A stretch of DNA of 64,000 nucleotides from Halosolutus halophilus. GTDB lineage: Archaea > Halobacteriota > Halobacteria > Halobacteriales > Natrialbaceae. Location of the stretch: NCBI RefSeq assembly GCF_022869805.1, contig NZ_CP094974.1, positions 3,286,001-3,350,000 on the forward strand, in the 5' to 3' direction. Every line of letters begins with the position of its first letter. Within the stretch, counting starts at the first letter, position 1. The translations under genes and the position numbers were made by a program. Shown here one piece after another: positions 33,540-63,536 of this stretch. Under the pieces are notes generated by a model. That model did no database searches and was not told the DNA's origin. It saw only the letters and a list, made by a program, of their open reading frames with translations.

Positions 33540-33560
33540 ATTCGCGCCCTCTATTCAGCA
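33540..33560 (-). repeat. 21-bp repeat, copy D
   Basis: ATTCGCGCCCTcTATTCAGC plus a final A. A copy with one mismatch occurs at 34096-34116 in the same orientation. Read on the minus strand it begins TGCTGAATA, as do the ends of the 32960 element. Confidence 0.6.
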
Positions 33561-33786: not shown

Positions 33787-34005
33787 ATGAGTTACGGAAT
33801 ACCCTCTCTGCAAGTGGCGACGGGCGTTGTATTTGCTTACGTAATGCACTTCGTGGCAACTGCCTTGCACGACTTCTTCGGCTTCCTGTTCTCTGGCATG
33901 TTGACCGTCTTTGGTCTGTACATAGCCGCTCACGGGCTATTTACTGGTATCGAGGTAGCTGTGAATGGACCGTCAACCGACAATAATTCGGCTGAAACAC
34001 GATAG
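33787..34005 (+). CDS. small membrane protein, unknown function
   Basis: 72 residues with two hydrophobic helices, LQVATGVVFAYVMHFVATAL (about residues 8-27) and LFSGMLTVFGLYIAAHGLFTG (about residues 34-54), separated by HDFFGF. No family is recognised. A TATA-like TACTTTTTCC lies about 30 nt before the ATG at 33787. The gene sits between the two 21-bp repeats in AT-richer DNA, so it may have been carried in with them. Confidence 0.5.
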   Translation: MSYGIPSLQVATGVVFAYVMHFVATALHDFFGFLFSGMLTVFGLYIAAHGLFTGIEVAVNGPSTDNNSAETR

Positions 34006-45044: not shown

Positions 45045-45217
45045 CGGCCGTCGAACGGCGCCCCCTCGATCGGTAACGACAGACCCCGGTCCTCGAACCG
45101 CCGGTACGATGCGGTTCGAATCGACGCCGACGGCTCCCGTGGAGCCGATGTCGCGGGATACGAGAACGGGAACAAAACGCGAACCGCAACCGAACCGGAT
45201 TCGGGGTGATGCGCCGG

Positions 45218-46573: not shown

Positions 46574-46699
46574 CTTTCTCGTCGGCGTATCCAAGTATCT
46601 CTGCTACTAAAACCCTGCTGCTCCGAGCAATTCTTCGGTCTCCCGGATGGAATTGGATATTCGTAAACTTCTAAAGGCTAGAGTGAGAGGGTAAACGTG
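46574..46699. promoter_or_regulatory. glnA/lrp divergent promoter region
   Basis: 126 bp that must hold both promoters. ACTAAAACC and CTTCTAAAGG are AT-rich patches near the regulator side. An Lrp-binding palindrome could not be fixed by eye. Confidence 0.4.
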
Positions 46700-47161
46700 A
46701 TGACGTACGAAAATCTCGACGCAAAGCTAGTGAATGCACTCCTTGGCGACGGCCGAGCGAGCCTCCGCAGCCTCGCCGAGGAGCTCGACGTGTCCGTGAC
46801 GACGGTCTCGAACCACCTCTCGGATCTCGAGGAACAGGGCGTAATCGAAGGGTACACGCCGCGTGTGGACTACGACGCCGTCGGTTACGACGTGACCGCC
46901 GTCATCCAGCTCCAGGTCGAAGGGAACGCTCTGCCGGACATCACGGATACGCTCCGCGAGCACCGACAGATGACCAGCGTCTACGAGGTGACCGGCGACT
47001 ACGACGTGATCGCGATCGGTAAGTTCAGGGACACCGACGGAATGAACGATCAGATCAAACAGTTGCTGACCGACCCGGATATCAAGGCCTCGAACACCAG
47101 CGTCGTCCTCAACGCGGTCAGTGAAAACGAACAGTTCGAACTCGACGTCGAAGAGACCTGA
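46700..47161 (+). CDS. lrp: Lrp/AsnC family transcriptional regulator
   Basis: 153 residues. An N-terminal helix-turn-helix ([20 protein letters not shown], then [20 protein letters not shown] with [12 protein letters not shown] as the recognition helix) leads to the RAM domain ([40 protein letters not shown]). RAM domains bind amino acids and set the oligomer state. The position divergent from glnA suggests regulation of nitrogen assimilation, as reported for the Halobacterium Lrp. Start: ATG at 46700, preceded by GTG at 46697, so it could also begin one codon earlier. Confidence 0.92.
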
Positions 47162-47203
47162 TCGGCGGGGCTCCTGCACGCGAGTCCCCGGCCTTCGCAC
47201 CCC

Positions 47204-49129: not shown

Positions 49130-49206
49130 TGGCGACTCGCTACTGTTTCGATTCGTAAACCTACACCGATTTCGCTCATCGCGGACGCGGATCGCGCGCC
49201 AAACCC

Positions 49207-49347
49207 TCAGCGAACGTATAGGAACACCGCGCCGAGCGCGAGGAGCAGGAGCCCCCACCAGAGCGAATCGCCGGGGAGCACTTTCAGGACGAGCGTGACG
49301 ATACCGGAGGTGAACAGCGACCAGCCGATCGTCGTCTGGTAGGCCAT
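49207..49347 (-). CDS. 46-residue membrane protein
   Basis: MAYQTTIGWSLFTSGIVTLV followed by a second hydrophobic segment DSLWWGLLLLALGAVFLYVR. Two short helices or one hairpin, no charged domain. It is divergent from nothing and lies 77 bp before the ABC exporter GTG on the same strand, so it may be cotranscribed. The ATG, the reading-frame length and hydrophobic spacing are convincing, but no family is recognised. Confidence 0.6.
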   Translation of the reverse strand: MAYQTTIGWSLFTSGIVTLVLKVLPGDSLWWGLLLLALGAVFLYVR

Positions 49348-49526
49348 ACCGACCGTACCTGCCCGGGGGCAATAATTCGCCGGCCTGCCAGTTGCGGGGC
49401 GACGGTCCTGCTCGACTCCCGAGCAGTCGCTACCGACAACCTGAAAAATGGAAGAATCGCGATCGATCGACGGCCGGTTCGAGTGTGGCGCGAGGTCGGC
49501 AGTGGGAAGCAGTCAGGGAACCGACG

Positions 49527-51191
49527 TTACATCATGCCGCCCATGCCGCCACCCATGCCGCCGCCCATGCCGCCGGGGGCGCCGCCTTCTTCGTCGTCGC
49601 CCTTGTCCGTCGACAGGTCGCCGGCGGAGATGATGTCGTCGATCTTGAGGACGAGGTTCGCGGCCTCGGCAGCGGAGGTGACGGCCTGCTCCTTGGCGTG
49701 GGCCGGTTCGACGACGCCGGCCTCGTAGGTGTCCTCGACGTCGCCGGAGAAGACGTTCAGGCCGGCCGTCACGTCGTTCTCGTCGTGGGCCGCACGCAGG
49801 TCGACGAGCGTATCGATCGAGTCGAGGCCGGCGTTCTCGGCGAGCACGCGCGGGACGAGTTCGAGCGAGTCGGCGAAGGCCTCGACGGCCAGCTGCTCGC
49901 GGCCGGAGACGGAGTCGGCGTAGTCGCGCAGGCGCGAGGCGAGTTCGACCTCGATCGCACCGCCGCCGGCGAGGACGCGGCCGTCGGAGACGGTCTGGGC
50001 GACGACGTCGAGCGCGTCGTTGACGCCGCGCTCGAGTTCGTCGACGACGTGGTCGGTCGAGCCGCGCAGCAGGAGGGTGACGCCGTGGGCGTCCTCGCCC
50101 TCGACGTAGAACAGTTCGTCCTCCTCGTCGCGGGTGACGTCACCGAAGCCGAGGTCGTCCTCGGTCGCGCCCTCGAGGTCGGAGACGATGTTCGCGCCGA
50201 CGACCTCCTTCAGGAACTCGAGGTCGGACTTCTTGGCGCGGCGGACGGCGAGGACGCCCTCCTTGGCGAGGTAGTGCTGGGCGAGGTCGTCGATGCCTTT
50301 CTGGCAGAAGACGACGTCCGCGCCGAGATCGGCGATCTTGTCGACCTTCTCGCGAAGCTGCTGTTCCTCGCGGTCGAGGAACTTCTGGAGCTGGTCCGGA
50401 TCCGTCACGGAGACTTCGGTGTCGACGTCGGTCTCTTCGACCTCGATCGCGGAGTTCAGCAGCAGAATGTCGGCGTCCTCGGCCGCGGTGGGCATGTTGT
50501 CGTGGACGGGGTCCTTGTCCACGATGCCGCCCTCGAGGAGGTCGGATTCGCCGGCGCTGCGACCGGTCTGGGTCTCGATGTTGAGGAACTCGAGGTCGAC
50601 GACGTTCTCGCCCTCCTCGTCCTCGACGGTGACCTGACGGATGGCCTCGACGATGAGTTCCGCGAGGTACTCCTTGTTGACCTCGGTGCCCTTGCCGGTC
50701 ATCGAGGTCTCGGCGACCGAGCGCAGGAGGTCCTCGTCCTCGGAGTCGACGACCTCGGCGATGTCGTCGATCTCCTCGCGGGCCTGCTCGCTGGCGAGGT
50801 GGAAGCCCTTGATGATCGCCGTCGGGTGGATGTCCTGCTCGAGGAGGTCCTCGGCGTTCTTGAGGAGTTCGCCGGCGATCGCGACGGCCGTCGTGGTGCC
50901 GTCACCGGCCTCGTCTTCCTGGGTCTCGGCGACCTCGATGATCATCTCGGCCGTCGGGTTGTCGATGTCCATCTCCTGAAGGATGGTGACGCCGTCGTTG
51001 GTGATGGTGACCGACCCCATCGAGTCGACGAGCATCTTGTCCATCCCTTTCGGGCCGAGCGTGGAGCGGACGGCTTCAGCGACCGCACGCGCGGCACTGA
51101 TGTTGTAGTCCTGCGCGTCCTTGTCCTTGACGCGCTGGGAGTCCTCGCTCATTACGATCATCGGCTGTCCCTGCTGCATTCGCTGGCTCAT
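49527..51191 (-). CDS. thsA: thermosome (group II chaperonin) subunit
   Basis: 554 residues. It starts [20 protein letters not shown] and has [20 protein letters not shown] (equatorial nucleotide-binding), [20 protein letters not shown], then [20 protein letters not shown] (GDGTT) and the apical domain, and [20 protein letters not shown] (GGGAxE). It ends in a Gly/Met-rich tail ([15 protein letters not shown]), typical of chaperonin cavities. It folds proteins in an ATP-driven hetero- or homo-oligomeric double ring. A TATA box is 30 nt upstream. Haloarchaea have two or three paralogues; which one this is cannot be said. Confidence 0.95.
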
Positions 51192-51220
51192 AGTCGAGCG
51201 AGTGATTGTTTGTGGTTCCA

Positions 51221-51226
51221 AATAAA
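51221..51226 (-). promoter_or_regulatory. TATA box of the thermosome gene
   Basis: Minus strand TTTATT, 30 nt upstream of the thermosome ATG (51191), within ACATTTATTTGG, the usual AT-rich element of haloarchaeal heat-shock promoters. Confidence 0.5.
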
Positions 51227-51593
51227 TGTTCCGATGCTCGACTCGATCCGATCGGGCGTGGCTCGGCGATCGGTCGTCGAAAACCGCACCAGTGCGGAAC
51301 GATCGTCGGCGTCCGATCCGAGACGCGACGTTCGGTGTTCGCATCGTGTCGATCGTCCACACGGTGCTTTTATATGTCTGCGGACTGGCTCGCGGATCCG
51401 GAACGGCCGGCGGCACGCGAGAGGACGCGAGTCCGCCGATCGATCGGCTCCCGACGCCGGCGTGACCGAAATCGTCGCCATCGCCTGGTCGACCGTCGAC
51501 GGCGATCTCACTGCCTCGTCGTCCGTCGACAGCGATCGGTTTTCCGGGTGAAAATTCCTCCGAGAGTCACCGAAGTCCCGATTCCGTGGAGTT

Positions 51594-51607
51594 TTAGGTG
51601 GGCTTAA
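51594..51607. promoter_or_regulatory. metal-repressor palindrome (operator 1, imperfect)
   Basis: TTAGGTGGGCTTAA, 26-39 nt before the ATG of the flippase gene. One half matches the TTAGG/CCTAA consensus seen at the four other sites; the other half reads GCTTAA instead of GCCTAA. The site coincides with the expected TATA position. Confidence 0.5.
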
Positions 51608-51632
51608 ATATCTGGGGTCGCAGCCTTCGAGC

Positions 51633-52874
51633 ATGAGCGGCGAGCGGGGGTCCCCGCGGATCGACGGCGAGCAGTCTGCCGTGCGGGAGAGGGGGGACGG
51701 GTCGGGAACGGGAGACGCCGACGGAGATGGGGCGACGTCGGGAGAGGTCGACGGAAATGGGGCGACGAACGGCGGCATCGCAGCGACGCTGACCCGACGC
51801 CGGGTGACGATCGCGGGCACGGTGCTCGTGGTCCTCGGCCTGGCCGTCGCTGTGCGAGAACTCGACGTCCGCGCGGTCACAGCGGAGGTCGCGACGGCCG
51901 ACCCGCTCGTGCTGGTCGCCGCGATCGCCGTCTACGCCGTCTCGTGGCCGGTCCGGGGTCGTCGCTACGGGTCGATCCTCGGATCGATCGGCCACCCGGC
52001 CGGGACGACGTTTCTCACGCTGGCCGTCTTCGTCAGCCAGACGGCCAACCTCGCGATCCCGGCGCGGGCGGGCGACGCGGTACGCGCGTCCGTCGTCAAT
52101 ACCTACCGGGACGTCCCCTACGCGTCGGGATTTGCCTCGCTGACTGTCGAGCGGGTCTTCGACCTGGCGTCGATCGCCGTCCTCGCCGGCGTCGCGATGG
52201 GGTGGCTGGCGATCGGTGGGGACACCGGCCCGCTCCAGATCGTCGCGGAGACCGGCGGCGCGCGAACCGCGTTCGTCGCCGCGGCGATCGTGAGCGCTGC
52301 GACCCTCGGGGTCGGGGCCGTCGTCGTGACGTCGGCCCGATCCAACTACGGGTACGGCGGGCGGCTCCGAGCGCGAATCCGCGGCGAGCCGCGGCTCGAA
52401 GGGGCGCTCGAGGCCGCCCTCCAGTTCGTGGCGGACGTCCAGATCGTCGCCCGCCAGCCGCGGGCGCTCGTCGCGATCGGCGGCGCGAGCCTGGCCGTGT
52501 GGACGCTGGACGTGCTCACAGCGGTGCTCGTCCTCGCGGCGCTCGATAGCGGCTTGCCCACCGGCACGCTGCTGGCGGTCGGCACCCTCGCGGTCAGCGT
52601 CGGGAACCTCGCGAAGGTCCTGCCGCTCTCCCAGGGCGGGATCGGCCTCTACGAAGCGGCGTTTACGGCCCTCGTCGTCGGCCTCACTCCCGTCGGCGCG
52701 AGCACGGCGCTGGCGGCCGCACTCGTCGATCACGCCCTGAAGAACGCGGTGACGCTGGTCGGCGGCACCGGCGCGGTCGCGTCGCTGGGCGTTTCCCTAT
52801 CGTCCGCCGCCGAGGAGTCCCGATCGAGCCGATCGGCGGAGACCGGCAACTTTTTAGGTTCACCTAAAAAATAG
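51633..52874 (+). CDS. UPF0104 / LPG-synthase-TM-like flippase protein
   Basis: 413 residues. After a 45-residue Gly/Asp-rich lead come about eight helices. LAVFVSQTANLAIPARAGDA is the TMH pair with the family motif N-x-x-x-P-x-R-x-G-D, and VGNLAKVLPLSQGGIGLYEA then DHALKNAVTLVGGTGA are the C-terminal blocks of LPG_synthase_TM (PF03706). Archaeal members, including the C-terminal half of AglD in Haloferax, are linked to dolichol-phosphate sugar handling or flipping. The last codons (NFLGSPKK) run across operator 2, so the downstream promoter lies inside this gene. Confidence 0.82.
   Translation: MSGERGSPRIDGEQSAVRERGDGSGTGDADGDGATSGEVDGNGATNGGIAATLTRRRVTIAGTVLVVLGLAVAVRELDVRAVTAEVATADPLVLVAAIAVYAVSWPVRGRRYGSILGSIGHPAGTTFLTLAVFVSQTANLAIPARAGDAVRASVVNTYRDVPYASGFASLTVERVFDLASIAVLAGVAMGWLAIGGDTGPLQIVAETGGARTAFVAAAIVSAATLGVGAVVVTSARSNYGYGGRLRARIRGEPRLEGALEAALQFVADVQIVARQPRALVAIGGASLAVWTLDVLTAVLVLAALDSGLPTGTLLAVGTLAVSVGNLAKVLPLSQGGIGLYEAAFTALVVGLTPVGASTALAAALVDHALKNAVTLVGGTGAVASLGVSLSSAAEESRSSRSAETGNFLGSPKK
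52851..52870. promoter_or_regulatory. metal-repressor palindrome (operator 2)
   Basis: TTTTTAGGTTCACCTAAAAA: 9-bp arms TTTTTAGGT and ACCTAAAAA around a 2-nt centre, 12-31 nt before the ATG of the GT75-like gene. It overlaps the expected TATA box and the last codons of the flippase gene. Confidence 0.75.
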
Positions 52875-52881
52875 GGCGGCA

Positions 52882-54105
52882 ATGAGTCAGGACATCTGCG
52901 TTATCGTGCCGACGATACGGGAGTACGAGTGCCTGCGTTCGTACTTCGAGAACGCCCGCGAGCACGGGTTCGACCTCTCGCGACTCCACGTCGTGCTCGT
53001 CACGGAGGATTTCTGCGAAACCGGGGAGATGGAAGCGATGCTCGCGGAGGAGGGCGTCTCCGGCGAGGTTTTCGACGGAACGCGCCGCGAGGAGTGGTAC
53101 GTCGACCACGGCGTCGCGGGGTACGGCCACGTCGTCCCGGCGGCGAGTCACGCCGAGACGAGTTTCGGGTTGCTCTACATGTGGGCCCACGACGAGTTCG
53201 ACTACGGCTTCTTCATCGACGACGACACGCTGCCCCACGAGGACGTGGACTTCTTCGGCACGCACATGCAAAATCTCGCGTTCGAGGGCGAGATCGAGGC
53301 GGTCTCCTCGGACGAGCGGTGGGTGAACGTCCTCTACCAGAACGCCGACGAACACGGACTCTATCCCCGAGGGTACCCCTACTCGGCGATGGACGAAACG
53401 ATCGAGACGGACACGACCGCGATCGCGTCCGGCGAGGTCGTCGCCTCGCAGGGGCTGTGGACCAACGTCCCGGACCTCGATGCCGTCCGTATTCTCATGG
53501 ACGGCGACCTCGAGGGGCAGGCCCAGACCCGGACGACTCGGGAGGACTTCGGCGAGGACTTCGTCGCCGCGCGGGGCAACTACCTCACCGTCTGCTCGAT
53601 GAACCTCGCGTTCCGCCGCGAAGTGATCCCCGCGTTCTACCAGCTGCCGATGGACGACAACGAGTGGAACGTCGGCCGCTTCGACGACATCTGGAGCGGC
53701 GTCTTCCTCAAGCGGGCCTGCGACGTACTCGGCAAGCGGATCTACAACGGAGCGCCGCTGTGTGAACACAACAAAGCCCCGCGCAGCACGTTCGACGATC
53801 TCAACAACGAAGTGCCGGGGCTCGAACTCAACGAACACCTCTGGCGCGTCGTCGACGACGTGGAACCGGAAGTTCCACGTGACGGTCGGACGGCGTCGCC
53901 GTCCGACGACGTGGGCGTCGACGCGGACTCCTACGCTGCCGTCTTCGAGGCGATGGGGAGCGAACTCGCACGCGGGGACTGGTCCGAGTACACCAACGGC
54001 GCGTTCTTCAACCACGTCGGCGAGTACATGCTCGACTGGCTGGACTGCCTCTACGCGCTCGATCGGCCGACGTCCCGTGCGGCGGAATCGACGGTTATAA
54101 GTTAG
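52882..54105 (+). CDS. reversibly glycosylated polypeptide-like (GT75) protein
   Basis: 407 residues. ICVIVPTIREYECLRSYFEN starts the fold, DYGFFIDDDTLPHEDVDFFG holds the metal-binding DDD, and YPRGYPYSAMDETIET is close to the plant RGP block (LFPRGYPYSLR). TVCSMNLAFRREVIPAFYQL and GRFDDIWSGVFLKRACDVLG continue PF03214. Plant members are UDP-arabinopyranose mutases and self-glycosylating proteins; archaeal members are often labelled 'alpha-1,4-glucan-protein synthase'. It is cytosolic, without signal peptide. Possible roles are UDP-sugar ring isomerisation or priming of a glycan. Expression is probably controlled by operator 2. Confidence 0.82.
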   Translation: MSQDICVIVPTIREYECLRSYFENAREHGFDLSRLHVVLVTEDFCETGEMEAMLAEEGVSGEVFDGTRREEWYVDHGVAGYGHVVPAASHAETSFGLLYMWAHDEFDYGFFIDDDTLPHEDVDFFGTHMQNLAFEGEIEAVSSDERWVNVLYQNADEHGLYPRGYPYSAMDETIETDTTAIASGEVVASQGLWTNVPDLDAVRILMDGDLEGQAQTRTTREDFGEDFVAARGNYLTVCSMNLAFRREVIPAFYQLPMDDNEWNVGRFDDIWSGVFLKRACDVLGKRIYNGAPLCEHNKAPRSTFDDLNNEVPGLELNEHLWRVVDDVEPEVPRDGRTASPSDDVGVDADSYAAVFEAMGSELARGDWSEYTNGAFFNHVGEYMLDWLDCLYALDRPTSRAAESTVIS

Positions 54106-54121
54106 TTTAGGCGAGCCTAAA
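54095..54121. promoter_or_regulatory. TATA box and metal-repressor palindrome (operator 3)
   Basis: TTATAA at 54095-54100 is a TATA box 26-31 nt upstream of the ATG. TTTAGGCGAGCCTAAA at 54106-54121 is a perfect palindrome with 7-bp arms around GA. It lies between TATA and the start codon of the iron-binding lipoprotein gene, in position to block polymerase. Confidence 0.75.
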
Positions 54122-54125
54122 AGAT

Positions 54126-55247
54126 ATGACGCGACACGACGGTTCGGTGGGCCGCCGGGCATTCCTCGCCGGTTCGGCCGCACTCGGTACGGCAGGAACG
54201 GCCGGTTGCCTCGGCCTGATCGGCAGCGAAGACGACGACGGCGAGAACGTCTTCGGCCAGATCGGTTCCGGCCGCGCGGGTCGGCCGGAACCCGGCGGTA
54301 CGCCGGTCGAGGAGTTACCGGATCTCGAGGGGGAACTCACCGTCTACTCCGGGCGCAGCGAGTTCCTCGTCGGTAGCCTCGTCGACGACTTAGAGGAGTA
54401 CTACGACGACTTCTCGATCGACCCCCGCTACGGCGACTCGTCGGACCTCGTCAACCAGATCCGCGAGGAAGGATCGGGAACGCCGGCGGACGTCTTCTAC
54501 ACGGTCGATGCGGCCGCACTCGGTGATCTCGCCGACAACGGACGGGCGAGCACGCTCTCCGACGACCTCCTGGAGATGGTCCGCTCGGAGTTCCGGACCG
54601 ACCAGTGGATCGGAACCTCGGGTCGCGCGCGGGCGATCCCGTACAACACGGACGCGCTCTCCGAGGACGACATGCCCGACAGCATCGACGCCTACGCGAC
54701 GGACTTCGACGGCGATCTCGGCTGGGCGCCATCCTACGGTTCCTGCCAGTCCTTCGTCACCGCGATGCGACTCCTCGAGGGCGAAGACGCCACCCGCGAG
54801 TGGCTCGAAGGCGTCGTCGACTCGGGTATCACCGACTACAACGACGAGTACGCGGTCTGCGAGGCGATCGCCAACGGCGAGATCGACGCCGGCTTCACGA
54901 ACCACTACTACGTCCAGCGGGTCCGCGACGGGTCAGACGACGCGCCGATCGCAACTTCGTTCACCGAGGGCGACGCGGGGTCGATCTTCGACGTCGCCGG
55001 TGCTGCCGTCACCGACGCGGCGGACGATCCGGACCTCGCGGAGAACTTCGTCCGCCACCTGCTCTCCTCGCAGGCCCAGGAGTACTTCGCCACCTCGACG
55101 TTCGAGTACCCGCTGATCCCGGGCGTGGAGCCGGTCGGCGACCTGCCGACGATTGACGAACTGGACGTCCCGGACCTCGATCTGTCCCGGCTGTCGGACC
55201 GTCAGCCGACGATCGACCTCATGCGCGAGGTCGGTATCAACACCTGA
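54126..55247 (+). CDS. ferric-iron-type ABC substrate-binding lipoprotein
   Basis: 373 residues. GRRAFLAGSAALGTAGTAGC is a Tat signal with lipobox; Cys29 would be lipid-anchored. The mature part has ELTVYSGRSEFLVGSLVDDL (YSGR of FbpA/IdiA proteins), LVNQIREEGSGTPADVFYTV, GTSGRARAIPYNTDALSEDD, LGWAPSYGSCQSFVTAMRLL and IDAGFTNHYYVQR (Tyr pair of the iron site). Such proteins bind Fe3+ and pass it to a two-domain permease. The permease likely to serve it is 6.6 kb downstream (61883), under operator 5. An ATPase is not in the window. Operator 3 overlaps its promoter. Confidence 0.88.
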   Translation: MTRHDGSVGRRAFLAGSAALGTAGTAGCLGLIGSEDDDGENVFGQIGSGRAGRPEPGGTPVEELPDLEGELTVYSGRSEFLVGSLVDDLEEYYDDFSIDPRYGDSSDLVNQIREEGSGTPADVFYTVDAAALGDLADNGRASTLSDDLLEMVRSEFRTDQWIGTSGRARAIPYNTDALSEDDMPDSIDAYATDFDGDLGWAPSYGSCQSFVTAMRLLEGEDATREWLEGVVDSGITDYNDEYAVCEAIANGEIDAGFTNHYYVQRVRDGSDDAPIATSFTEGDAGSIFDVAGAAVTDAADDPDLAENFVRHLLSSQAQEYFATSTFEYPLIPGVEPVGDLPTIDELDVPDLDLSRLSDRQPTIDLMREVGINT

Positions 55248-55299
55248 GCGCCCGCGAACGGTCACAGCACCCTGGTCAGTCACCCACTCTCGTCACTCC

Positions 55300-57582
55300 G
55301 TGATTCCCGATCCCCGCCGTTGGCTCTCCTCGTCGTCGTCCGTCGCGACTCGCCTCGCCGCCGTTCGCGGGCTCGCGGGCCGCGCTCGCTCGATCCTGCA
55401 CGGCCGCGTCCGCGACGGCGCCGATCGTGACCCCCTCTACGCGCTCTGTATCGCCGTCCTCGCGGGACTCGCCGTGTTCGCGCTCGCAACGGAACTGTTT
55501 CCGTACCACTCCAGTAACGACGACGAGGCCGTCTACCTGCTGCAGGCGGCCATGCTCCTCGAGGGGCAACTCGAACTCCACGCGGGCGATCTCGCCGGCG
55601 CGTTCCGACCGTGGTTCTTCGTCGAGGACGGAGGCCGACTCTACCCGAAGTACTCGCCCGTTCCGGCCGCGATGTACGCCGTGTCGATGGCGTTTTTCGA
55701 CGAGCCGCGCGTGACGCTGGCGGCCGTCGCGGCCGGCAACGCTGCGCTGACCTACGTCCTCGGTTCGATGGTGTTCGATCGACGGGTCGGCGCCGTCGCC
55801 GCGGCCGTCTTCGCCGCTTCGCCGATGGCCCTGCTCACGTCGTCGGTGTTCCTGCCGTACGCGCCGACGACGCTCCTGAATCTGGTATTCGCCGTCGCGT
55901 ACCTCCGCGGCGACCGTGACGGCCGCCTTCGCGACGCCGTCCTCGCGGGCGTTGCGATCGGCCTCGCCTTCTTCGCCCGTCCGTACACCGCCGTCCTGTT
56001 CGCCGCGCCGTTCATCTGTCACGCGTGCTGGTCGATCCTGCGGTCGGTGCGACGCGCCGAGGGACGGCCGCGAAGGCTCCGATCGCTCCCGAATCCGGCC
56101 CGGCGGAACGCGCTGACCGCCGCCGTCGGACTGGCGTTCGTCGGCGTCACGCTCGCGTACAACGCCCGGATCACAGGCTCGCCGCTGGTGTTCCCCTACG
56201 AGGCGTTCGCACCGCGTGACGGACCCGGCTTCGGGACCCGCGAAATCCTCGATCACTCGATCGAGTACACGCCGGCGCTGGCCCTCGAGACCAACGGCTA
56301 CGCCCTCTGGTACCTCACGACGCGCTGGTTCACCGCGGGCCCGATCGGGTCGATCGCCGCGCTCGCGGGACTCGGTCTCGCGCTGTGGCGGTGGCAGCCC
56401 GTCCCGCTCGATCGGTGGCGCGGGAGCGCCCCCTCCGCCGATTCGGCGTCCGTCGATTCGTCGGACGGTCGGACGGCGGGGCTCCTTCTCGCCGGCCTGC
56501 TGGTGACCGTTCCGCTCGGCAACCTCGCGTTCTGGGGGAACTTCAACGTGCTCGCGGGGATGACCGATCCCACGACTGGGCTCGTCTCCAGGTTCGGCCC
56601 CTTCTATCACTTCGACGTGCTCGTCCCCCTGTCGATCTTCGCTGGATTCGGCCTCGTGGCCGGCTGGCGGCGACTCCGCGACGGGGCGATTCGCGATCGG
56701 TTCGCCGCGTCGCGCTCGCCCCGCACGGTCCGTAGCGTCGTCCTCGCGGCGCTGGTAGCGAGCACGCTCGTCGTCGGCGTGGCCACCGTCGCTCTCCTCT
56801 CCGCGCCGATCGAGCGCAACGCGGCCCACACCGATCGGTTCGAGTCGGCCTACGAGCCGTTCGAGGAGCGCGACCTCGAGAACGCGCTCGTGTTCCAGCC
56901 GACGCCGTACGGCCAGTGGCAAAATCACCCGTTCCAGTCGCTGCGGAACGACCCCGATCTCGACGGTGCGGTGGTCTACGCGCTGGACGGCCCGCCAGAA
57001 CGGGACTTCGCGGTGCTCGACGCCTACTCCGACCGCGAGTACTACCGCTACACGTATCGCGGCGAGTGGACGGCCGTTCCCGACGATCCCGTCGTGCCGA
57101 AACTCGAACCGCTGTCGATTCGCCAGGGCGAGTCGCTCGCGGGCGAGACGGTCGTCGGCGTTCCCGATCGGGTCGATCGAGCGGTAGTTCGCCTCGAAAA
57201 CGAGAGCGGCGCGACGGCCACCTCCCGGATCGACGATCCGGGGAACTCGATCGCGGTCGAGTGGGCGCTCGAATCCGGTGCCGACGAGAGCACCGCCACA
57301 GCACGGCTGGCGGCCACCGAGAACGCGACGATCCCGCTCGACCCGACCGACGAAGTCGTACTGGAGATCACGCTGGTCCAGTTCGACGGCGCGACGTTCA
57401 CGTACCGGCAGGCAGCGCCCGTCCGGGCGACCGACGACGGGATCAGGGTCGTCTGGCCGCCCGAGCGGACGAGCTGTGCGCTGGTCACGGACTGCGATCG
57501 CGAGGGAACCTATCTTCCCGACCGCCCGGACACCCACCGCGAGTGGGAATCGTTCGAGACGCGGCTCGAGCCGCGAGGGTAA
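55300..57582 (+). CDS. GT-C type membrane glycosyltransferase-like protein
   Basis: 760 residues from GTG 55300. The first luminal loop has HSSNDDEAVYLLQAAMLLEG, with an acidic DDE near the end of helix 1 as in GT39/ArnT/DUF-type dolichol-phosphate-dependent enzymes, followed by about 11-12 helices (for example VAAAVFAASPMALLTSSVFL, LAGVAIGLAFFARPYTAVLF and AVGLAFVGVTLAYNARITGS). A C-terminal soluble domain (about residues 515-760) is outside. It would transfer a lipid-linked sugar to an acceptor; the sugar and acceptor are unknown. It begins 52 bp after the iron-binding lipoprotein gene without its own operator, so it is probably in the same transcript. Confidence 0.75.
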   Translation: MIPDPRRWLSSSSSVATRLAAVRGLAGRARSILHGRVRDGADRDPLYALCIAVLAGLAVFALATELFPYHSSNDDEAVYLLQAAMLLEGQLELHAGDLAGAFRPWFFVEDGGRLYPKYSPVPAAMYAVSMAFFDEPRVTLAAVAAGNAALTYVLGSMVFDRRVGAVAAAVFAASPMALLTSSVFLPYAPTTLLNLVFAVAYLRGDRDGRLRDAVLAGVAIGLAFFARPYTAVLFAAPFICHACWSILRSVRRAEGRPRRLRSLPNPARRNALTAAVGLAFVGVTLAYNARITGSPLVFPYEAFAPRDGPGFGTREILDHSIEYTPALALETNGYALWYLTTRWFTAGPIGSIAALAGLGLALWRWQPVPLDRWRGSAPSADSASVDSSDGRTAGLLLAGLLVTVPLGNLAFWGNFNVLAGMTDPTTGLVSRFGPFYHFDVLVPLSIFAGFGLVAGWRRLRDGAIRDRFAASRSPRTVRSVVLAALVASTLVVGVATVALLSAPIERNAAHTDRFESAYEPFEERDLENALVFQPTPYGQWQNHPFQSLRNDPDLDGAVVYALDGPPERDFAVLDAYSDREYYRYTYRGEWTAVPDDPVVPKLEPLSIRQGESLAGETVVGVPDRVDRAVVRLENESGATATSRIDDPGNSIAVEWALESGADESTATARLAATENATIPLDPTDEVVLEITLVQFDGATFTYRQAAPVRATDDGIRVVWPPERTSCALVTDCDREGTYLPDRPDTHREWESFETRLEPRG

Positions 57583-57673
57583 TGTGCGACACGGAAGACG
57601 AATCGTGCGTTCTCGGCCACTCGTCGCACAGTTCAGGCACCACCGTTAGGAATCGGCTGCCGGTACGAACCGT

Positions 57674-58717
57674 ATGTCCGACGATCGCTGCGGCCACGTC
57701 GCGAACATCAGCGGTATCGGCGACAAGGGATCAGTCTGTTGCTGGCGATCCGTGTGGCGCGAGACCGATCGGTGCATCTGGCACACGGACAGCACGGTTC
57801 CGGCGCCGGCCTACGAGCAAAATCGTCCGAAAGCGGGCGAACGACTCGACGGCGCGAACTTGCGTCAGGCGCCGCTGAGCGGGTCGGACGTTCTGGCCGA
57901 CTGCTCGCTCGTCGACGCCGACTTCACGGGTGCGACGCTGGACCGCGCCGATCTCTCCGAGACCGACCTCCGTCGGGCGACGTTCCGGGACGTCGACGCT
58001 CACGGGACTTCCTTTCGGGACGCGAACCTCCACGACGCGGTGTTCGTCTTCGCCGACCTCCGCAGTGCCGATTTCCGCGGTGCGAGACTCTACCGCGCGG
58101 GGCTGACCGACGTCCGACTCAACCTCGAGACGGCGTTCGACGAGCGGCCGGTCTACGAGGACGAACTCTCCGGGGAACCGTCCACGGACGAGATCACCGA
58201 ACGGGCCGAATCCGCACGGTGGGTCTACCGGGAACTCCAGCGCCTCTACGAGGAAAACGCGTTTTCCGAGCGCGCTATCGACTACTACGTTCGGGAGATG
58301 GACCTGCGGCGGCGACAGGCGTGGCGTGTCAGGAACTATCTGGTCGCGCTCAAATTCGCCGGCTCCCGCTGGATCATGCGCTACGGGACGAGTCCCTGGC
58401 GGGTCGTGACGGCGTCGATCCTCTTGATCCTCTTCTGTGCGGGCCTGTTCCCGCTCACGGGCGGTATCCAGGAGGTGGGGGCCGACACCGCCGTGACCTA
58501 CCGGGTCGAGGATCCGACCGAGACGCCCGGCGGGGTCCTTCTCCGGGCCTTCTTCAAGAGCCTCTACTTCAGCGTTATCACCTTCGCCACGCTCGGGTAC
58601 GGTGACATCCAGCCGGTCGGAAGCTGGGCGCGGGCGATCGCCGGGGTCGAGACGATGCTCGGCTCGCTGCTGATGGCGCTGCTGGTGTTCGTCCTCACTC
58701 GCAGCGTCCGCTTCTAG
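57674..58717 (+). CDS. pentapeptide-repeat protein fused to a K+ channel pore
   Basis: 347 residues. Residues 55-150 form pentapeptide repeats (GANLRQAPLSGSDVLADCSL, then DADFTGATLDRADLSETDLR and RDANLHDAVFVFADLRSADF), a right-handed beta-helix. A helical linker (about residues 165-225) leads to a two-helix pore: VVTASILLILFCAGLFPLTG, P-loop YFSVITFATLGYGDIQPVGS with selectivity filter TLGYGD, and TMLGSLLMALLVFVLTRSVR. The N-terminus has a Cys/His cluster (CGHVAN, CCW, CIWH). Gating by something sensed through the beta-helix or Cys cluster is inference. It lies 92 bp after the GT-C gene, perhaps cotranscribed. Confidence 0.85.
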   Translation: MSDDRCGHVANISGIGDKGSVCCWRSVWRETDRCIWHTDSTVPAPAYEQNRPKAGERLDGANLRQAPLSGSDVLADCSLVDADFTGATLDRADLSETDLRRATFRDVDAHGTSFRDANLHDAVFVFADLRSADFRGARLYRAGLTDVRLNLETAFDERPVYEDELSGEPSTDEITERAESARWVYRELQRLYEENAFSERAIDYYVREMDLRRRQAWRVRNYLVALKFAGSRWIMRYGTSPWRVVTASILLILFCAGLFPLTGGIQEVGADTAVTYRVEDPTETPGGVLLRAFFKSLYFSVITFATLGYGDIQPVGSWARAIAGVETMLGSLLMALLVFVLTRSVRF

Positions 58718-58721
58718 GGGC

Positions 58722-59480
58722 TCACCGGAACCGCTCCTCGAGACAGACTTTGACGATCGACTTCGCGATGGCGGCGCCGCCCTGTACGGGGTCAAGTTTG
58801 GTCTCGCCGGCGCGTTCGCGGTACTCGATCGGGCGCTCGCGGACGTCGTAGCCCCGCATCAGCGGCCGAATGAGGAGTTCCGCGGAGAGGCCGGTGTTCT
58901 CGGTCCACTCGATCGACTCGACCACGTCGCGGCGGTACGCGCGCATCCCGGTCGTCGTGTCGTGCACCCGGGTGCCCATCAGGACGCTCGCGATGGCGGC
59001 GAAGGCGTGGTTGCCGAATCGGTTGAAGGCGGGCATCGCCTCCGCGCCGTGGTAGAGACGATCGCCGCTGACGACGTCGTAACCATCGTTGATCAACTCG
59101 AGGAACTCCGGGAGCTGTTCCATCGGATAGGTGTCGTCGCAGTCGGTCGTGACGACGATCGGTCGGTCCGGTTCGAGGATCGCCGCGCGGACCGCGACGC
59201 CGTATCCCTGGGGTCGCTGCGTGACGACCGTCGCCCCGTGTTCGCGGGCGATCTCCGGCGTGCGGTCCGAGGAGCCGTCGACGCAGACGACCTCCGCCTT
59301 CCCGTCGGTGATCGCTTCGATGTCCGAGAGCACCGTGCCGATCGCTTCCTCCTCGTCGTACGTTCCCATCACGACGCTGACGTCCTCGAAGGTGTAGGCG
59401 TCCCCGTCGGCGTCCTGGCCCCCCGTCGTGGTCTCCGTGTCGTCCGCGTCGTCTCCGACGCGCCCGTCTGCGCGACTCAT
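58722..59480 (-). CDS. GT2 glycosyltransferase, dolichol-phosphate sugar type
   Basis: 252 residues. FEDVSVVMGTYDEEEAIGTV is the first strand, EVVCVDGSSDRTPEIAREHG the second, IVVTTDCDDTYPMEQLPEFL gives the DxD (DCDD), and DTTTGMRAYRRDVVESIEW then ERPIEYRERAGETKLDPVQG are typical of archaeal Dpm1/AglD-like enzymes. They make dolichol-phosphate-hexose at the cytoplasmic face. An acidic 30-residue start precedes the domain. Operator 4 sits 31-48 nt upstream of the ATG (59480). It converges with the channel gene. Confidence 0.88.
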   Translation of the reverse strand: MSRADGRVGDDADDTETTTGGQDADGDAYTFEDVSVVMGTYDEEEAIGTVLSDIEAITDGKAEVVCVDGSSDRTPEIAREHGATVVTQRPQGYGVAVRAAILEPDRPIVVTTDCDDTYPMEQLPEFLELINDGYDVVSGDRLYHGAEAMPAFNRFGNHAFAAIASVLMGTRVHDTTTGMRAYRRDVVESIEWTENTGLSAELLIRPLMRGYDVRERPIEYRERAGETKLDPVQGGAAIAKSIVKVCLEERFR

Positions 59481-59504
59481 TGACGGTACTCTCTGCCCGG
59501 CGCA

Positions 59505-59528
59505 CTTATATTTTAGGTTCGCCTAAAA
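59505..59528. promoter_or_regulatory. metal-repressor palindrome (operator 4) with TATA
   Basis: TTTTAGGTTCGCCTAAAA at 59511-59528 has 7-bp arms TTTTAGG and CCTAAAA. On the minus strand it directly precedes and overlaps AAATATAAG (TATA, 25-33 nt from the GT2 ATG). Confidence 0.75.
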
Positions 59529-59543
59529 CGACGAGTGTGACGA

Positions 59544-61193
59544 TCAGAGCGCGTCGAGAACGTGATCCGCGGCCTTCAGCGCGAGCGCGGCGATCGTCAG
59601 CGTCGGGTTCATCGCGCCGGCGGTCGGGAAGACGCTGCTGGAGGCGATCCAGCAGTTCTCGAGGTCGTGCGTCCGGAGACCCGGGCCGACGACGCTCTCC
59701 TCCTGGTCCGACCCCATCCGGGTCGTTCCCATGTGGTGGTACGCCGGCCCGGTGTCGTCGGGGCCCGCTCGCCAGGTGATCTCCGCGCCGAGTTCCTCGA
59801 GGATCCGCTCCTGGACCTCGTTCGCCCGTTCGATCGTCCGCAGCGCCCGATCGCCGACGGTCCAGTGGACGTCGGGGACGGGATTGCCGCGGTCGTCTGT
59901 CCGATCGGGATCGAGCGCGACGTAGCTGTCCTCGCGGGGGAGTTGCTCGACGAGCGCGCCCAGGCCCACGTGGGTGCCGTACTCCCCGCGAAGCCGATCG
60001 AGGAGATCGTCGCCCCAGTCGTCGCCGGTGAGTGCCGTCTCGACCGGCGAGGGGCCGGCGTAGTTGAAGAACTCGAGTTTGAACGGGCCGACCTCCGCGT
60101 CGGCGTCGTCGTAGAACTGGTGGCACTCGCTGGTCAGGAAACCCACGTGATTCTGGCGCGTCGGTTCCTCGAGCGTGCCGCCCATCCCCGCGAACAGGTG
60201 GTCCATGAAGAACTGGCCGACGAGACCGCTCGAGTTAGCCAGCCCGTCGGGGTAGTGGCTCGAATCCGACAGTAACAGGAGCCGCGGGGTCTCGACGCCG
60301 CCACAGGCGATCACGAAGGCGTCGGCTTCCTGGCGGTGCTCCTGATCGTCCGGGGTGGCGTAGACGGCCGCCTCGATCGCGTCGGGCCCGTGCTCGAGAC
60401 GCTGGACGGGCGCGCGATCGATCACCGTCGCGCCCCGCCCCTCGGCGCGCTCGACGTGGACGGTCGCGTCGTACTTCGCGCCGGAGGGGCAGACCGGCTG
60501 ACAGGTCCCGTAACCGACGCAGGCGCTTCGACCGTCGTAGCTCTCCGAGTTGCGCGCGTTCGGCACCGAGTGCATCGCGATCTCGAGTTCCTCGCAGGCC
60601 TCCGCGAACAGCCCGTCGCTGTAGGAGGGCGGGAAGGCGGGCATCGGATGGGGGTTCTGGCGGGGCGGCGCGAAGGGGTTGTCGTCGGCCCCCGCCACGC
60701 CCAGTTCCCGTTCCGCCTCGGCGTAGTACGGTCGGAGATCCTCGTAGTCGATCGGCCAATCCGTTCCGACTCCGCGGGCGCTCCGGGACTCGAAGTCGTC
60801 CTCGTGGAGGCGCATTACCATCCCCTGCCAGTGCAGCGTCGACCCGCCGACGCCCTTGACACGGGTGTGGTTCAGCGGGTAGAACCAGTCGCCGCTCGCC
60901 GAGTGGGCGTCACGCTCCGGGTCGCCGTCCCAGACGGCCGGGCGATCGTAGGCGGGCCGGATCGCCCGCTCCTGGCGCGCGAGGCGATCACCGGGATCGA
61001 ACCGCGGCCCGGCCTCCAGGATCACCACCTCGAGTCCGGCCGCGACCAGTCGATCGGCGACCAGTCCGCCGGCCGGCCCGGCACCGACGACGCAGACGTC
61101 GGCGTCTTCGACCGGCGTCCGATCGACGTCGTCGGCGTCGCTCTCCGCGTCCGCCGGACCCGCGCTCTCGGCGGGCGGCCGATCGGCGCTCAC
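59544..61193 (-). CDS. GMC-family oxidoreductase (gluconate dehydrogenase large-subunit-like)
   Basis: 549 residues from GTG 61193. DVCVVGAGPAGGLVADRLVA is the FAD-binding GxGxxG, then GVGGSTLHWQGMVMRLHEDD, and SACVGYGTCQPVCPSGAKYD has the C-x5-C-x3-C block of membrane gluconate/sorbitol-type dehydrogenases, perhaps an iron-sulfur site. YHHMGTTRMGSDQEESVVGP with NCWIASSSVFPTAGAMNPTL is the catalytic His region (H...N). It overlaps the stop of the upstream small subunit (GTGA), so it is translationally coupled. It lacks a signal and probably exits by the Tat system with the small subunit. Substrate unknown. Confidence 0.88.
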   Translation of the reverse strand: MSADRPPAESAGPADAESDADDVDRTPVEDADVCVVGAGPAGGLVADRLVAAGLEVVILEAGPRFDPGDRLARQERAIRPAYDRPAVWDGDPERDAHSASGDWFYPLNHTRVKGVGGSTLHWQGMVMRLHEDDFESRSARGVGTDWPIDYEDLRPYYAEAERELGVAGADDNPFAPPRQNPHPMPAFPPSYSDGLFAEACEELEIAMHSVPNARNSESYDGRSACVGYGTCQPVCPSGAKYDATVHVERAEGRGATVIDRAPVQRLEHGPDAIEAAVYATPDDQEHRQEADAFVIACGGVETPRLLLLSDSSHYPDGLANSSGLVGQFFMDHLFAGMGGTLEEPTRQNHVGFLTSECHQFYDDADAEVGPFKLEFFNYAGPSPVETALTGDDWGDDLLDRLRGEYGTHVGLGALVEQLPREDSYVALDPDRTDDRGNPVPDVHWTVGDRALRTIERANEVQERILEELGAEITWRAGPDDTGPAYHHMGTTRMGSDQEESVVGPGLRTHDLENCWIASSSVFPTAGAMNPTLTIAALALKAADHVLDAL

Positions 61194-61720
61194 GGCTCCG
61201 GCCCCCGCTGGTAGGTGTCGACCCCGCCGGCGTGGCCCTGTGGGTTCTCGATGCCGACCAGTTCGCCGCCCGTCGGCGACGCGTACAGCGCCAGCAGGAG
61301 TTCGTTGACGACGTAGTAGCGCACCCGCTCGGCGGTCGTGCCGTCGGGATCCTCGTCGGCGGTGTCCGACCCGACCTCGCGCAACAGCGAGTCGCGATCG
61401 GCCGCGGAGAGATCGGCGACGGCGTCGCCGTACCACTCCGCCGACAGCCGTTCGAGGTCGGCGACCGCCTCGCGCAGTCCCCGAGCGTGTCCGGGGTCGT
61501 CCAGTCGTCCCTCGAGGAACGCCTCGACGAACGTCGCCGTCCCGGTCACCGCGTCGGGGTAGACGACTTCGGCGACGGCGACCAGCGTTTCGCGGACCTG
61601 CCCGTCGTCGACCGTGGGCGCATCCGCCGATCGACGGGACCGACGGAGGCCGACCGCGGCCGCGCCGCCGGCACCGAGCGCGGCCAGCGCGGCGGTCGCG
61701 TCTCGCCTGGTCAACTCCAT
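61190..61720 (-). CDS. gluconate 2-dehydrogenase subunit 3-like protein
   Basis: 176 residues. MELTRRDATAALAALGAGGA is a Tat-type signal (TRRDA). The mature part (VDDGQVRETLVAVAEVVYPD, then VTGTATFVEAFLEGRLDDPG, ERLSAEWYGDAVADLSAADR and RVRYYVVNELLLALYASPTG) matches PF13618, the small subunit needed for export and activity of the GMC-type large subunit. It overlaps the large subunit gene by four nt. Operator 5 separates its start from a TATA on the minus strand. Confidence 0.82.
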   Translation of the reverse strand: MELTRRDATAALAALGAGGAAAVGLRRSRRSADAPTVDDGQVRETLVAVAEVVYPDAVTGTATFVEAFLEGRLDDPGHARGLREAVADLERLSAEWYGDAVADLSAADRDSLLREVGSDTADEDPDGTTAERVRYYVVNELLLALYASPTGGELVGIENPQGHAGGVDTYQRGPEP

Positions 61721-61728
61721 ATCGCGGA

Positions 61729-61750
61729 TTAGGCAAACCTAAACCTTATA
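61729..61750. promoter_or_regulatory. metal-repressor palindrome (operator 5) in a divergent promoter
   Basis: TTAGGCAAACCTAA at 61729-61742 lies between the small-subunit ATG (61720, minus) and TATAAGGTTT (minus-strand TATA, 61741-61750). It also stands upstream of the Fe3+ permease gene on the plus strand, so one operator may control both transcripts. Confidence 0.7.
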
Positions 61751-61882
61751 CCCGTTGGAACGAGTCCGTCGAAATACGGACCCGTAACGGTGGCGCAGCG
61801 TTCGGCGATCGCGGTACCGGATTCCGGGACGAACCGATCGACACTTGCCGTTCACGGACCGAGAGTCGACAACTCGAGATAC

Positions 61883-63508
61883 ATGAAATCGCTTGCTCCG
61901 CTTCGGCGGTTCGACGCAGCCGACGACGTGCCGCTCGGGCTGGCGCTGTTGTCCGGCGCGATCGCCGCGAGCATGATCCTTCCGCTGACCTGGCTGCTCT
62001 TCGAGGCGAGACGGGTGGACCCCGCCCGTGCCCGGGAGATGCTCGTCCGCCCGGAGACGGTGGACATCATCACCAACAGCCTCCTGCTGATGGCGTCGGT
62101 GACCGTCCTGTCGGTGCTGATCGGCGTGCCACTGGCGTGGCTGACCGTCCAGACGGATCTCCCGTTCCGACGCTTCTGGTCGATCGTCGTCGCGTTGCCG
62201 CTCGTGGTCCCGAGCTACATCGGGGCGTTCGCGTTCGTCTCCGCGTTCGGCCCGCGAGGCGAGTTCCAGTCGATCCTCCAGCCGTTCGGGATCGAACAGT
62301 TGCCGGAGATCTACGGGCTCCCCGGTACGACGCTGGTTATCACGCTCTACACCTATCCCTACGTCTACCTCACGACCCGCGCGGCCCTGCTGTCGTTCGA
62401 CACGACGCTGCTCGATGCCGCTCGAACGCTCAACCACGACGAGTGGGACGCGTTCCGCCGGGTGACGCTCCCGCAGATCCGCCCGGCGATCGTCGCGGGT
62501 GCCCTGCTCGCGGCGCTGTACGGCGTCTCGGACTTCGGGACCCCGGCGATCATGCAGTTCCCGGTGTTCACGCGACAGATCTTCGTCGAGTACAACAACG
62601 GCGGACTGGACTACGCGTCGTTGCTCTCCCTGCAGTTGCTCGCGATCGTCCTCGTCGTGCTGGCCCTCGAGTGGTGGGTGCGGCCCGATCGAACGATCCG
62701 GGGCGACGGTGCGGAGGGATCACACGAACCCGTGGTCTCGCTGGGCGTCTGGCGCTGGCCGGCGGCGGCGTTCCCTGCGGCGGTCACGACCCTCGCGCTC
62801 GCCGTCCCGATCTGGATCCTCGGGCTCTGGATGGTCACCGCCGATCCGTACGCGCGACAGACGCTGGCGTTCGAATTCAGCTACGCGCTGAACTCGGTGC
62901 TGGTCGCCACGGCGGCCGCGATCGTCGCCGTCCTCGCGGCGTTGCCGGTCGCGTACTTCGCGGCGCGATACGAGTCGCTGGTGGCGGTGGTGTTCGAGCG
63001 AGCGACGTACGTCGGCTTCGCCGTGCCGGGGATCGTCCTGGGGCTCGCGCTCGTCTACTTCGCGACGGGCTACGACTCGCTCGACCTCGCCTACGCCCCC
63101 GCGCTCTACCAGACGCTTCCGCTGCTCGTGTTCGCGTACGTCGTCCGCTTCATGCCCCAGGCCGTCGGCTCGATCCGGACGACCACGCTCCAGGTCGATC
63201 CGCAACTGGTCGAAGCCGCGCGGACGCTCGGCGAGACGCCGCTGCGGACCTTCCGGAAGATCACGCTCCCGCTCGTCACGCCGGGCGTGACCGCTGGCGC
63301 CGCGCTCGTGTTCCTGACGACCATGAAAGAGCTTCCGGTGACCCTGATCCTCCGTCCGAGCGGGTTCGAAACCCTCGTGACGATCATCTGGCGAGCCCAG
63401 GAAGCCGCCTACTTCCAGTACACCGCGATTCCGGCGTTCCTCCTGCTCGCCGTCTCCGGACTCTCGATGCTCGTGCTCCTCTCGCAGGGCGGGCGCGAGG
63501 GGCTGTAG
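61883..63508 (+). CDS. Fe3+-type ABC transporter permease (fused two-domain)
   Basis: 541 residues from ATG 61883; a GTG at 61790 would add 31 poorly conserved residues. About 12 helices in two repeated permease units, as in FbpB/AfuB. EAA loops are DAARTLNHDEWDAFRRVTLPQ (first) and EAARTLGETPLRTFRKITLP (second); PSYIGAFAFVSAFGPRGEFQ and FSYALNSVLVATAAAIVAVL are other landmarks. It imports iron delivered by the lipoprotein at 54126. The ATPase that should accompany it is missing in the following 490 bp, where an unrelated SRAP gene converges. Operator 5 is upstream. Confidence 0.88.
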   Translation: MKSLAPLRRFDAADDVPLGLALLSGAIAASMILPLTWLLFEARRVDPARAREMLVRPETVDIITNSLLLMASVTVLSVLIGVPLAWLTVQTDLPFRRFWSIVVALPLVVPSYIGAFAFVSAFGPRGEFQSILQPFGIEQLPEIYGLPGTTLVITLYTYPYVYLTTRAALLSFDTTLLDAARTLNHDEWDAFRRVTLPQIRPAIVAGALLAALYGVSDFGTPAIMQFPVFTRQIFVEYNNGGLDYASLLSLQLLAIVLVVLALEWWVRPDRTIRGDGAEGSHEPVVSLGVWRWPAAAFPAAVTTLALAVPIWILGLWMVTADPYARQTLAFEFSYALNSVLVATAAAIVAVLAALPVAYFAARYESLVAVVFERATYVGFAVPGIVLGLALVYFATGYDSLDLAYAPALYQTLPLLVFAYVVRFMPQAVGSIRTTTLQVDPQLVEAARTLGETPLRTFRKITLPLVTPGVTAGAALVFLTTMKELPVTLILRPSGFETLVTIIWRAQEAAYFQYTAIPAFLLLAVSGLSMLVLLSQGGREGL

Positions 63509-63536
63509 GCTCCGGCGATCGACGCCGTCGGCTCGA

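Follow-up and report, generated by a model that had tools for sequence, protein, structure and literature searches.

The window analysed here is a stretch of 64,000 nucleotides from Halosolutus halophilus. It contains a gene for a GT75/RGP (reversibly glycosylated polypeptide) protein of 407 amino acids with an ATG start, in a cluster with genes for two other glycosyltransferases, components of a ferric-iron transporter, a flippase-like membrane protein, and a GMC oxidoreductase with its partner (Table 1). As a sequence-only reading of this DNA had claimed, the flippase-like protein and the Fe3+-binding lipoprotein adjoin the GT75 gene. The lipoprotein has an N-terminal cysteine that we take to be part of a lipobox. 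A protein in which pentapeptide repeats are joined to an ion-channel domain is also encoded within the cluster (57674-58717, plus strand) and was seen in 2 of 75 related loci. The GMC/Gdh3 pair (59544-61720, minus strand) shares an operator region with the ferric permease. Outside the cluster, positions 32001-34000 have a GC content of 0.56, compared with about 0.65 on either side, and could be an inserted element. A known RNA element was considered for the region and rejected, as an Rfam search of positions 44000-64000 gave no match.

Table 1. Genes and predicted operator sites of the GT75 cluster (window coordinates).
Feature	Position	Strand	Evidence or remark
Operator of flippase gene, imperfect	51593..51608		TTTAGGTGGGCTTAAA; 1 mismatch
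LPG_synthase_TM / UPF0104-like flippase-like membrane protein	51633..52874	+	PF03706, E 4e-38; TIGR00374 above cut-off
Operator of GT75 gene	52851..52870		perfect 9+2+9 bp palindrome; core starts ~29 bp ahead of ATG
GT75/RGP gene, predicted NDP-pyranose/furanose mutase	52882..54105	+	PF03214; MtdL top in PDB by sequence and fold
Operator of ferric-binding lipoprotein operon	54106..54121		exact TTTAGGCGAGCCTAAA
FbpA-type Fe3+-binding lipoprotein (SBP) of ABC transporter	54126..55247	+	best solved relative: ferric-iron binding protein 7w3w, E 5.7e-57; Pfam SBP families
GT-C membrane glycosyltransferase, PMT_2 + DUF7846	55300..57582	+	PF13231, PF25230; start codon uncertain
GT2, NCBIfam dolichyl-phosphate hexose transferase	58722..59480	-	NF041391, 414 bits, cut-off 375
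Operator of GT2 gene	59512..59527		exact TTTAGGTTCGCCTAAA
GMC oxidoreductase, accessory in cluster	59544..61163	-	PF05199/PF00732; start uncertain
Gluconate 2-dehydrogenase subunit 3-like protein (Gdh3), GMC partner	61190..61720	-	PF13618
Operator between Gdh3 (-) and ABC permease (+)	61728..61743		ATTAGGCAAACCTAAA; 1 mismatch
ABC permease of ferric transporter	61790..63508	+	PF00528, 2 stretches

The assignment of the protein to the GT75/RGP family held. The PF03214 (RGP) profile matches with E 9.1e-17 and 61.7 bits (cut-off 23.8). It is the only Pfam family that the protein matches, with no match to another glycosyltransferase family or to PF03275 (Glf), and the genome has no second PF03214 match. 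The sequence-only reading had also looked to the plant UDP-arabinopyranose mutases. That kinship stands at the level of the family, but MtdL, a bacterial GDP-sugar mutase, is the closest characterized relative in both sequence and fold. The MtdL entries came first in a PDB sequence search (77 bits, E 1.1e-20); the score for rice UAM2 (8cid) was 23 bits. The AlphaFold (AF2) model has a mean pLDDT of 79.6 and a pTM of 0.84, and is weak (pLDDT below 50) at residues 160-169, which hold the reactive arginine, and in parts of 195-216. It has the GT-A domain, GT75 core and C-terminal helices of the family, and it matches MtdL with a Z score of 36.2 over 353 residues at 21% identity. The rice UAM2 fold was also matched (Z 26.6), less well than MtdL, and the next fold scored 14.8. 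Foldseek gave the same order, with MtdL first and 8cid second. Because MtdL and not plant UAM is the nearest characterized relative, UDP-arabinose is no default substrate. In a tree of 48 GT75 rows, all of them haloarchaeal, the window protein falls among the Natrialbaceae. We conclude that the haloarchaeal GT75 forms a new branch within a known family, and that the novelty lies in its combination with partner enzymes and an operator.

The metal motif DDD and the block YPRGYPYS, both picked out in the sequence-only reading, are present at residues 113-115 and 161-168. Equivalents of the MtdL residues were read from the pairwise PDB alignment and then from a 48-row GT75 alignment, which comprises the window protein and 47 of the 75 named loci (those omitted are mostly near-duplicates, together with L101, whose frame is broken, and L100, which is truncated). 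Identical in all 48 rows are D113-D115 (MtdL D109-D111), R163 (R159), D198 (D195), S239 (S228), D269 (D260) and the Mn ligand H296 (H287), so that the catalytic arginine and the DxD aspartates, whose absence would have spoken against the family, are invariant. R266 (MtdL R257) is present in the 47 rows that can be read there, one row having an unread residue. Ser89, the equivalent of the MtdL base-selectivity residue for GDP (Ser86), is found in all 48. Four positions differ from MtdL in every row: D87 is His90, Q229 is Met240, R289 is Lys298, and H292 is Arg301. Thus the sugar contacts Asp87 and Gln229 of the MtdL/Hyg20-type mutase are absent from the 48 haloarchaeal rows. The Asp-Ser pair that active plant GT75 members carry at MtdL positions 86-87 (PMC9937993) is absent as well, the alignment having Ser89-His90 instead; this pair is found in a canonical RGP of another haloarchaeon (L125). 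In MtdL, the substitutions R159K, D195N, D260N, D109N, R257K, Q229A, D87N and D87S each leave no activity (PMC9937993). Since MtdL loses its activity with D87N or D87S, the presence of His90, together with Met240, means that the substrate or even the activity of the haloarchaeal protein may differ. As judged from the alignment, the catalytic apparatus is kept and the sugar pocket is unlike both characterized types, so neither a substrate nor a nucleotide can be assigned. UDP-arabinose mutase was dropped as the default reading, given the closer match to MtdL and the missing plant Asp-Ser pair.

These residues bear on two alternatives to mutase activity. The protein might be a reversibly self-glycosylating carrier with an arginine-linked sugar and no mutase function. 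The same arginine is autoglycosylated in plant members, AtRGP2 transfers UDP-Glc without isomerizing it (PMC9937993), and the position of the sugar-contacting Asp87/Ser91 is occupied by His90. Most of the other MtdL mutase residues are kept, however, and the nearest characterized relative is a true mutase, which makes this alternative quite improbable. The second possibility is that the protein is catalytically dead and serves a structural purpose, as plant RGP5 does. The differences from MtdL at His90 and Met240 fit such a role, and some plant members, including rice UAM2, are inactive (PMC9937993). Against this, the equivalents of Arg257 and His287, whose loss has been offered to explain the inactivity of AtRGP5 (PMC9937993), are kept, and the identity of 66-86% across the fetched haloarchaeal loci argues for strong selection. 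We give the idea of a dead enzyme hardly any credence.

Which genes travel with GT75 was examined by comparing the window proteins with 75 named haloarchaeal GT75 loci, with 10-kb flanks. The GT-C gene was found in 73 of the loci, the SBP in 68, the permease in 65, the GT2 in 45, Gdh3 in 33, GMC in 30 and the flippase in 26. Of the two loci without GT-C, one (L071) ends 215 bp past the GT75 match and the other (L064) has unread bases. As it adjoins GT75 in 26 of the 75 loci, the flippase was rejected as an obligate neighbor of GT75. Five loci have GT75, GT-C and GT2 in a row and no ferric transporter; near GT75, four of these lack the operator and the fifth has a site with two mismatches. The five form one clade in the GT75 tree, which points to one evolutionary event and not five, and their retention of all three enzymes indicates that the link to iron is not essential to the enzymes. 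In 23 loci (e.g., L046:7667-8728), a gene for a GalE-like SDR epimerase precedes GT75 by about 2.2 kb. We rejected it as a supplier of substrate, because no operator was found at that distance and the window has a thermosome-like open reading frame there, on the other strand. The window SBP and Gdh3 contain no N-x-S/T sequon, so N-glycosylation of these two proteins is not suggested.

Comparison of whole genomes gave a sharper result. PF03214, PF25230 (DUF7846, in the GT-C protein) and NF041391 (the GT2) above its cut-off are each found in 57 of 125 genomes of the family, and the three sets are identical. Some match to NF041391 is present in 124 of the 125 genomes; the 57 score 388 bits or more, and no other match listed exceeds 142 bits. 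Nine genera are mixed for the presence of GT75, so the 57 genomes are not simply whole genera. The pairing extends beyond the family: among the order-level genomes (G126-G186), the 55 with GT75 are the 55 with DUF7846. DUF7846 occurs in 64 of 392 genomes of the phylum, all within the order to which the window belongs. The best 57 family genomes for the ferric lipoprotein are the same 57 (at least 336 bits, with the next at 313). This co-occurrence may be due to linkage; the SBP gene adjoins GT75, and part of it is therefore linkage. We conclude that GT75, GT-C and GT2 are a conserved three-enzyme set, co-occurring without exception in the 125 genomes compared. The functional partners proposed from the sequence alone thus need revision: the flippase does adjoin GT75 in the window, but the partners that follow it genome by genome are GT-C and GT2.

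The sequence-only reading had further proposed a metal operator with 9-bp arms ahead of GT75. A perfect inverted repeat with arms of this length, TTTTTAGGT-TC-ACCTAAAAA, is indeed present, and overlaps the final codons of the upstream flippase gene. The pattern TTTAGGNNNNCCTAAA, with up to two mismatches, occurs at 5 sites in the 64-kb window, all within positions 51593-61743. Shuffling gives an expectation of 0.11, and 5 sites were reached in none of 100 shuffles, which rules out a chance palindrome. (A general scan for inverted repeats was swamped by GC-rich palindromes.) The site is widely conserved. Upstream of GT75, TTTAGGnnnnCCTAAA is found exactly in 56 of 74 loci, with up to one mismatch in 69, and with up to two in 70, as compared with means of 0, 0 and 0.34 in dinucleotide shuffles; the remaining locus of the 75, L100, offers no upstream DNA to search. 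Among the 69 loci, one of the 12 arm positions alternates between A and T and the other 11 never change, whereas the 4-bp spacer is variable, which is the pattern expected of a protein site. The operator is mostly 28-36 bp ahead of the GT75 start, the distance at which a haloarchaeal gene transcribed without a leader would have its core promoter. The site about 1.2 kb upstream of GT75 recurs in relatives that have the flippase.

The distribution of the operator among genes points to iron. When sites up to 250 bp upstream were counted, with no more than two mismatches, GT75 had the operator in 70 of 74 loci, the SBP in 65 of 68, the linked GT2 in 34 of 44 and Gdh3 in 28 of 31. The corresponding counts are 12 of 25 for the flippase, 15 of 65 for the permease, 0 of 73 for GT-C and 0 of 29 for GMC. 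Because the last three or four of these genes are mostly inside operons, they would be under operator control by position. The 5.06-Mb genome has 7 exact copies of the core (0 for the reversed control). Three are in the GT75 cluster, and most of the 7 are beside genes for ferric-iron or siderophore transport. Two flank a FecCD siderophore-type transporter. Another precedes a gene for a TOBE-domain ABC ATPase that is not linked to the cluster (L122:3073-4300). This protein is a candidate ATPase for the ferric transporter of the window, as none was seen in the cluster; in the Haloferax locus L070, an ABC ATPase gene is inside the operon. One more exact site (L123:3524-3539) lies between genes for a SAM methyltransferase and a DUF7090 protein, neither obviously related to iron. 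Two genes of the genome clearly belong to the DtxR family, and one of them encodes a FeoA domain. From its arms and its position at promoters of iron genes, we predict that the operator is a DtxR-type iron operator. The 70 loci, the 5 window sites and the genomic sites beside iron transport genes strongly support the metal-operator reading.

If the GT2 enzyme acts in the same pathway, its gene should have the operator even where it is outside the cluster. In the 24 genomes examined, whose GT75 locus does not show the GT2, an NF041391 member was always present. Each has the operator ahead of the NF041391 match, at a distance of no more than 250 bp; one copy is exact and the other 23 have a single mismatch. 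Shuffles that preserved base composition gave a mean of 0.01 at up to one mismatch. These sites also help to decide whether iron is the relevant metal. DtxR-family proteins include manganese regulators, which counts for an alternative in which manganese, or metals generally, would be the signal for the operator. GT75 enzymes need Mn2+ or Mg2+ (PMC9937993), and GT75 would then be controlled for its Mn2+ need, its product having no role in iron limitation. However, the operator also precedes the FbpA-type Fe3+ lipoprotein, the ABC ATPase and the FecCD siderophore transporter, and it is found at the unlinked GT2 genes as well. We therefore regard control by manganese as very unlikely.

What the two partner enzymes do is suggested by their structural relatives. 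A PDB sequence search with the GT-C protein gave no informative match, and its class was settled by comparison of folds. The AF2 model (48 rows, the window protein plus 47 of the 70 GT-C genes that could be used; mean pLDDT 89, pTM 0.88) may include about 13 residues ahead of the true start. It has a GT-C fold, matching oligosaccharyltransferase (OST), PMT and ArnT with Z scores of 20-25. Matches to the arabinofuranosyltransferases AftD, AftA and Emb are mostly at Z 14-16, with one Emb row at 10.3. In the GT-C alignment, an N-terminal NxDE motif is nearly invariant and two cysteines near the C-terminus are invariant. OST, PMT, ArnT and the Aft/Emb enzymes use sugars on lipid phosphate or lipid pyrophosphate. 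The nearest PDB structure to the GT2 is dolichol monophosphate mannose synthase.

Two of these observations count against a furanose pathway: the GT2 model is named for a hexose, and the GT-C is closer to OST and PMT than to the furanosyltransferase folds. They favor a scheme in which the furanose made by GT75 goes to another, cytoplasmic transferase (for example, for a glycolipid or an N-glycan), and GT2 and GT-C add an ordinary pyranose, supplied by a polyprenyl-phosphate-hexose, to the same glycan. The dolichyl-phosphate hexose transferase name of NF041391, its mannose synthase relative, and the higher rank of OST, PMT and ArnT folds all fit this scheme. Yet no further transferase was recognized among the annotated gene families common to at least 12 of the 75 loci, and the exceptionless co-occurrence of GT2 and GT-C with GT75 in the 125 genomes ties these two enzymes to GT75 itself. 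We consider the scheme with a separate pyranose somewhat unlikely.

On balance, we favor a model of iron-repressed surface glycosylation by three enzymes, in which GT75 would make an NDP-furanose, GT2 would load it onto polyprenyl phosphate, and GT-C would transfer it outside the cell. The model builds on what was computed: the family, the fold, active-site conservation, the operator and its conservation, and the co-occurrence of the enzymes. From these we infer mutase activity, the sugar and its nucleotide, the direction of regulation, the acceptor, and an intermediate in which the furanose is carried on polyprenyl phosphate. With iron plentiful, the TTTAGGnnnnCCTAAA promoter sites would be occupied by a DtxR-type repressor and the pathway would be off. 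As iron falls, GT75, GT2, GT-C and the FbpA-type ferric transporter would be made together, joined in some of the species by the flippase and the GMC/Gdh3 pair. GT75 would interconvert NDP-pyranose and NDP-furanose, with the metal on DDD and His296 and the reaction proceeding via Arg163. The NF041391 GT2 would put the sugar onto polyprenyl phosphate, the flippase could present the lipid-linked sugar outside, and the GT-C (PMT_2/DUF7846) would move it to an extracytoplasmic acceptor. Iron-controlled sugar oxidation on the outside by GMC/Gdh3 is possible.

A wider interpretation, possible but held tentatively, is that these genes define a polyprenyl-phosphate-furanose route in which GT75 replaces the flavin mutase. 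The FAD-type mutase Glf (PF03275) is found in 10 of 391 genomes of the class and has no match in the genome of the window. The product could then be a surface glycan of iron limitation, maybe oxidized by GMC/Gdh3, and maybe capturing Fe3+ or serving the FbpA-type lipoprotein.

Our analysis places a distinct GT75 branch, with partner enzymes and an iron-type switch, in haloarchaea (PF03214 is present in 305 of 391 sampled genomes of the class). It also provides function-level hypotheses for DUF7846 and for the NF041391 GT2 family and, if our reading is true, links archaeal surface glycosylation to iron supply. Haloferax volcanii, a genetically tractable species, has all three genes, GT75, GT-C and GT2, as found in control searches, and the link between iron and glycosylation is therefore directly testable. 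Among the proteins changed more than 10-fold in iron-starved H. volcanii, the main text of the study names no GT75, GT-C or GT2 (PMC11349517). It does give a UPF0104 protein, HVO_1859 (+11.6), a possible counterpart of the window flippase, and a GalE-family protein, HVO_0655 (+12.7). Among titles and the openings of abstracts, we found no description of an archaeal GT75 or of the three-enzyme module; a prior listing in archaeal DtxR regulons (Leyn and Rodionov 2015) is possible.

GT75 chemistry has been characterized in plants and in two antibiotic clusters (PMC9937993). The enzymes of the antibiotic clusters, MtdL (Marinactinospora thermotolerans) and Hyg20, are GDP-L-fucose/GDP-L-galactose pyranose-furanose mutases. 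The haloarchaeal protein resembles MtdL in its fold over 353 residues and in the equivalents of DDD, Arg159, Asp195, Ser228, Arg257, Asp260, His287 and Ser86. Unlike the MtdL and Hyg20 genes, its gene lies in a cluster with GT-C, GT2 and ferric transporter genes, where the operator recurs. With the plant RGP/UDP-arabinopyranose mutases it shares the family, DDD and the catalytic arginine, and it differs from them in its far weaker sequence match to rice UAM2 than to MtdL. A canonical plant-like RGP does occur within the class (L125:7551-8528, minus strand; 452 bits to PF03214), amid glycan genes in one genome of the order, which has a second PF03214 match. As an in-class comparator, this protein shares the CxMNLAF block with the haloarchaeal GT75, whereas its DSACRCFG block is SHAETSFG in the latter.

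The closest parallel in logic is with mycobacteria. There, decaprenyl-phosphoryl-arabinofuranose is used by the GT-C transferases of the Emb/Aft type, and the furanose is made by a different route, which is not known to involve a GT75 mutase. The proposed haloarchaeal pathway would share the use of a lipid-phosphate furanose by a GT-C enzyme on the outside, and the AftD, AftA and EmbB folds are matched at Z 15-16. Unlike Emb and Aft, the haloarchaeal GT-C is closer to OST, PMT and ArnT. The operator also has a counterpart: its arms, TTAGG...CCTAA, are those of the Corynebacterium diphtheriae DtxR sites (PMC524172), with a spacer of 4 bp here as compared with 9 bp in the tox site.
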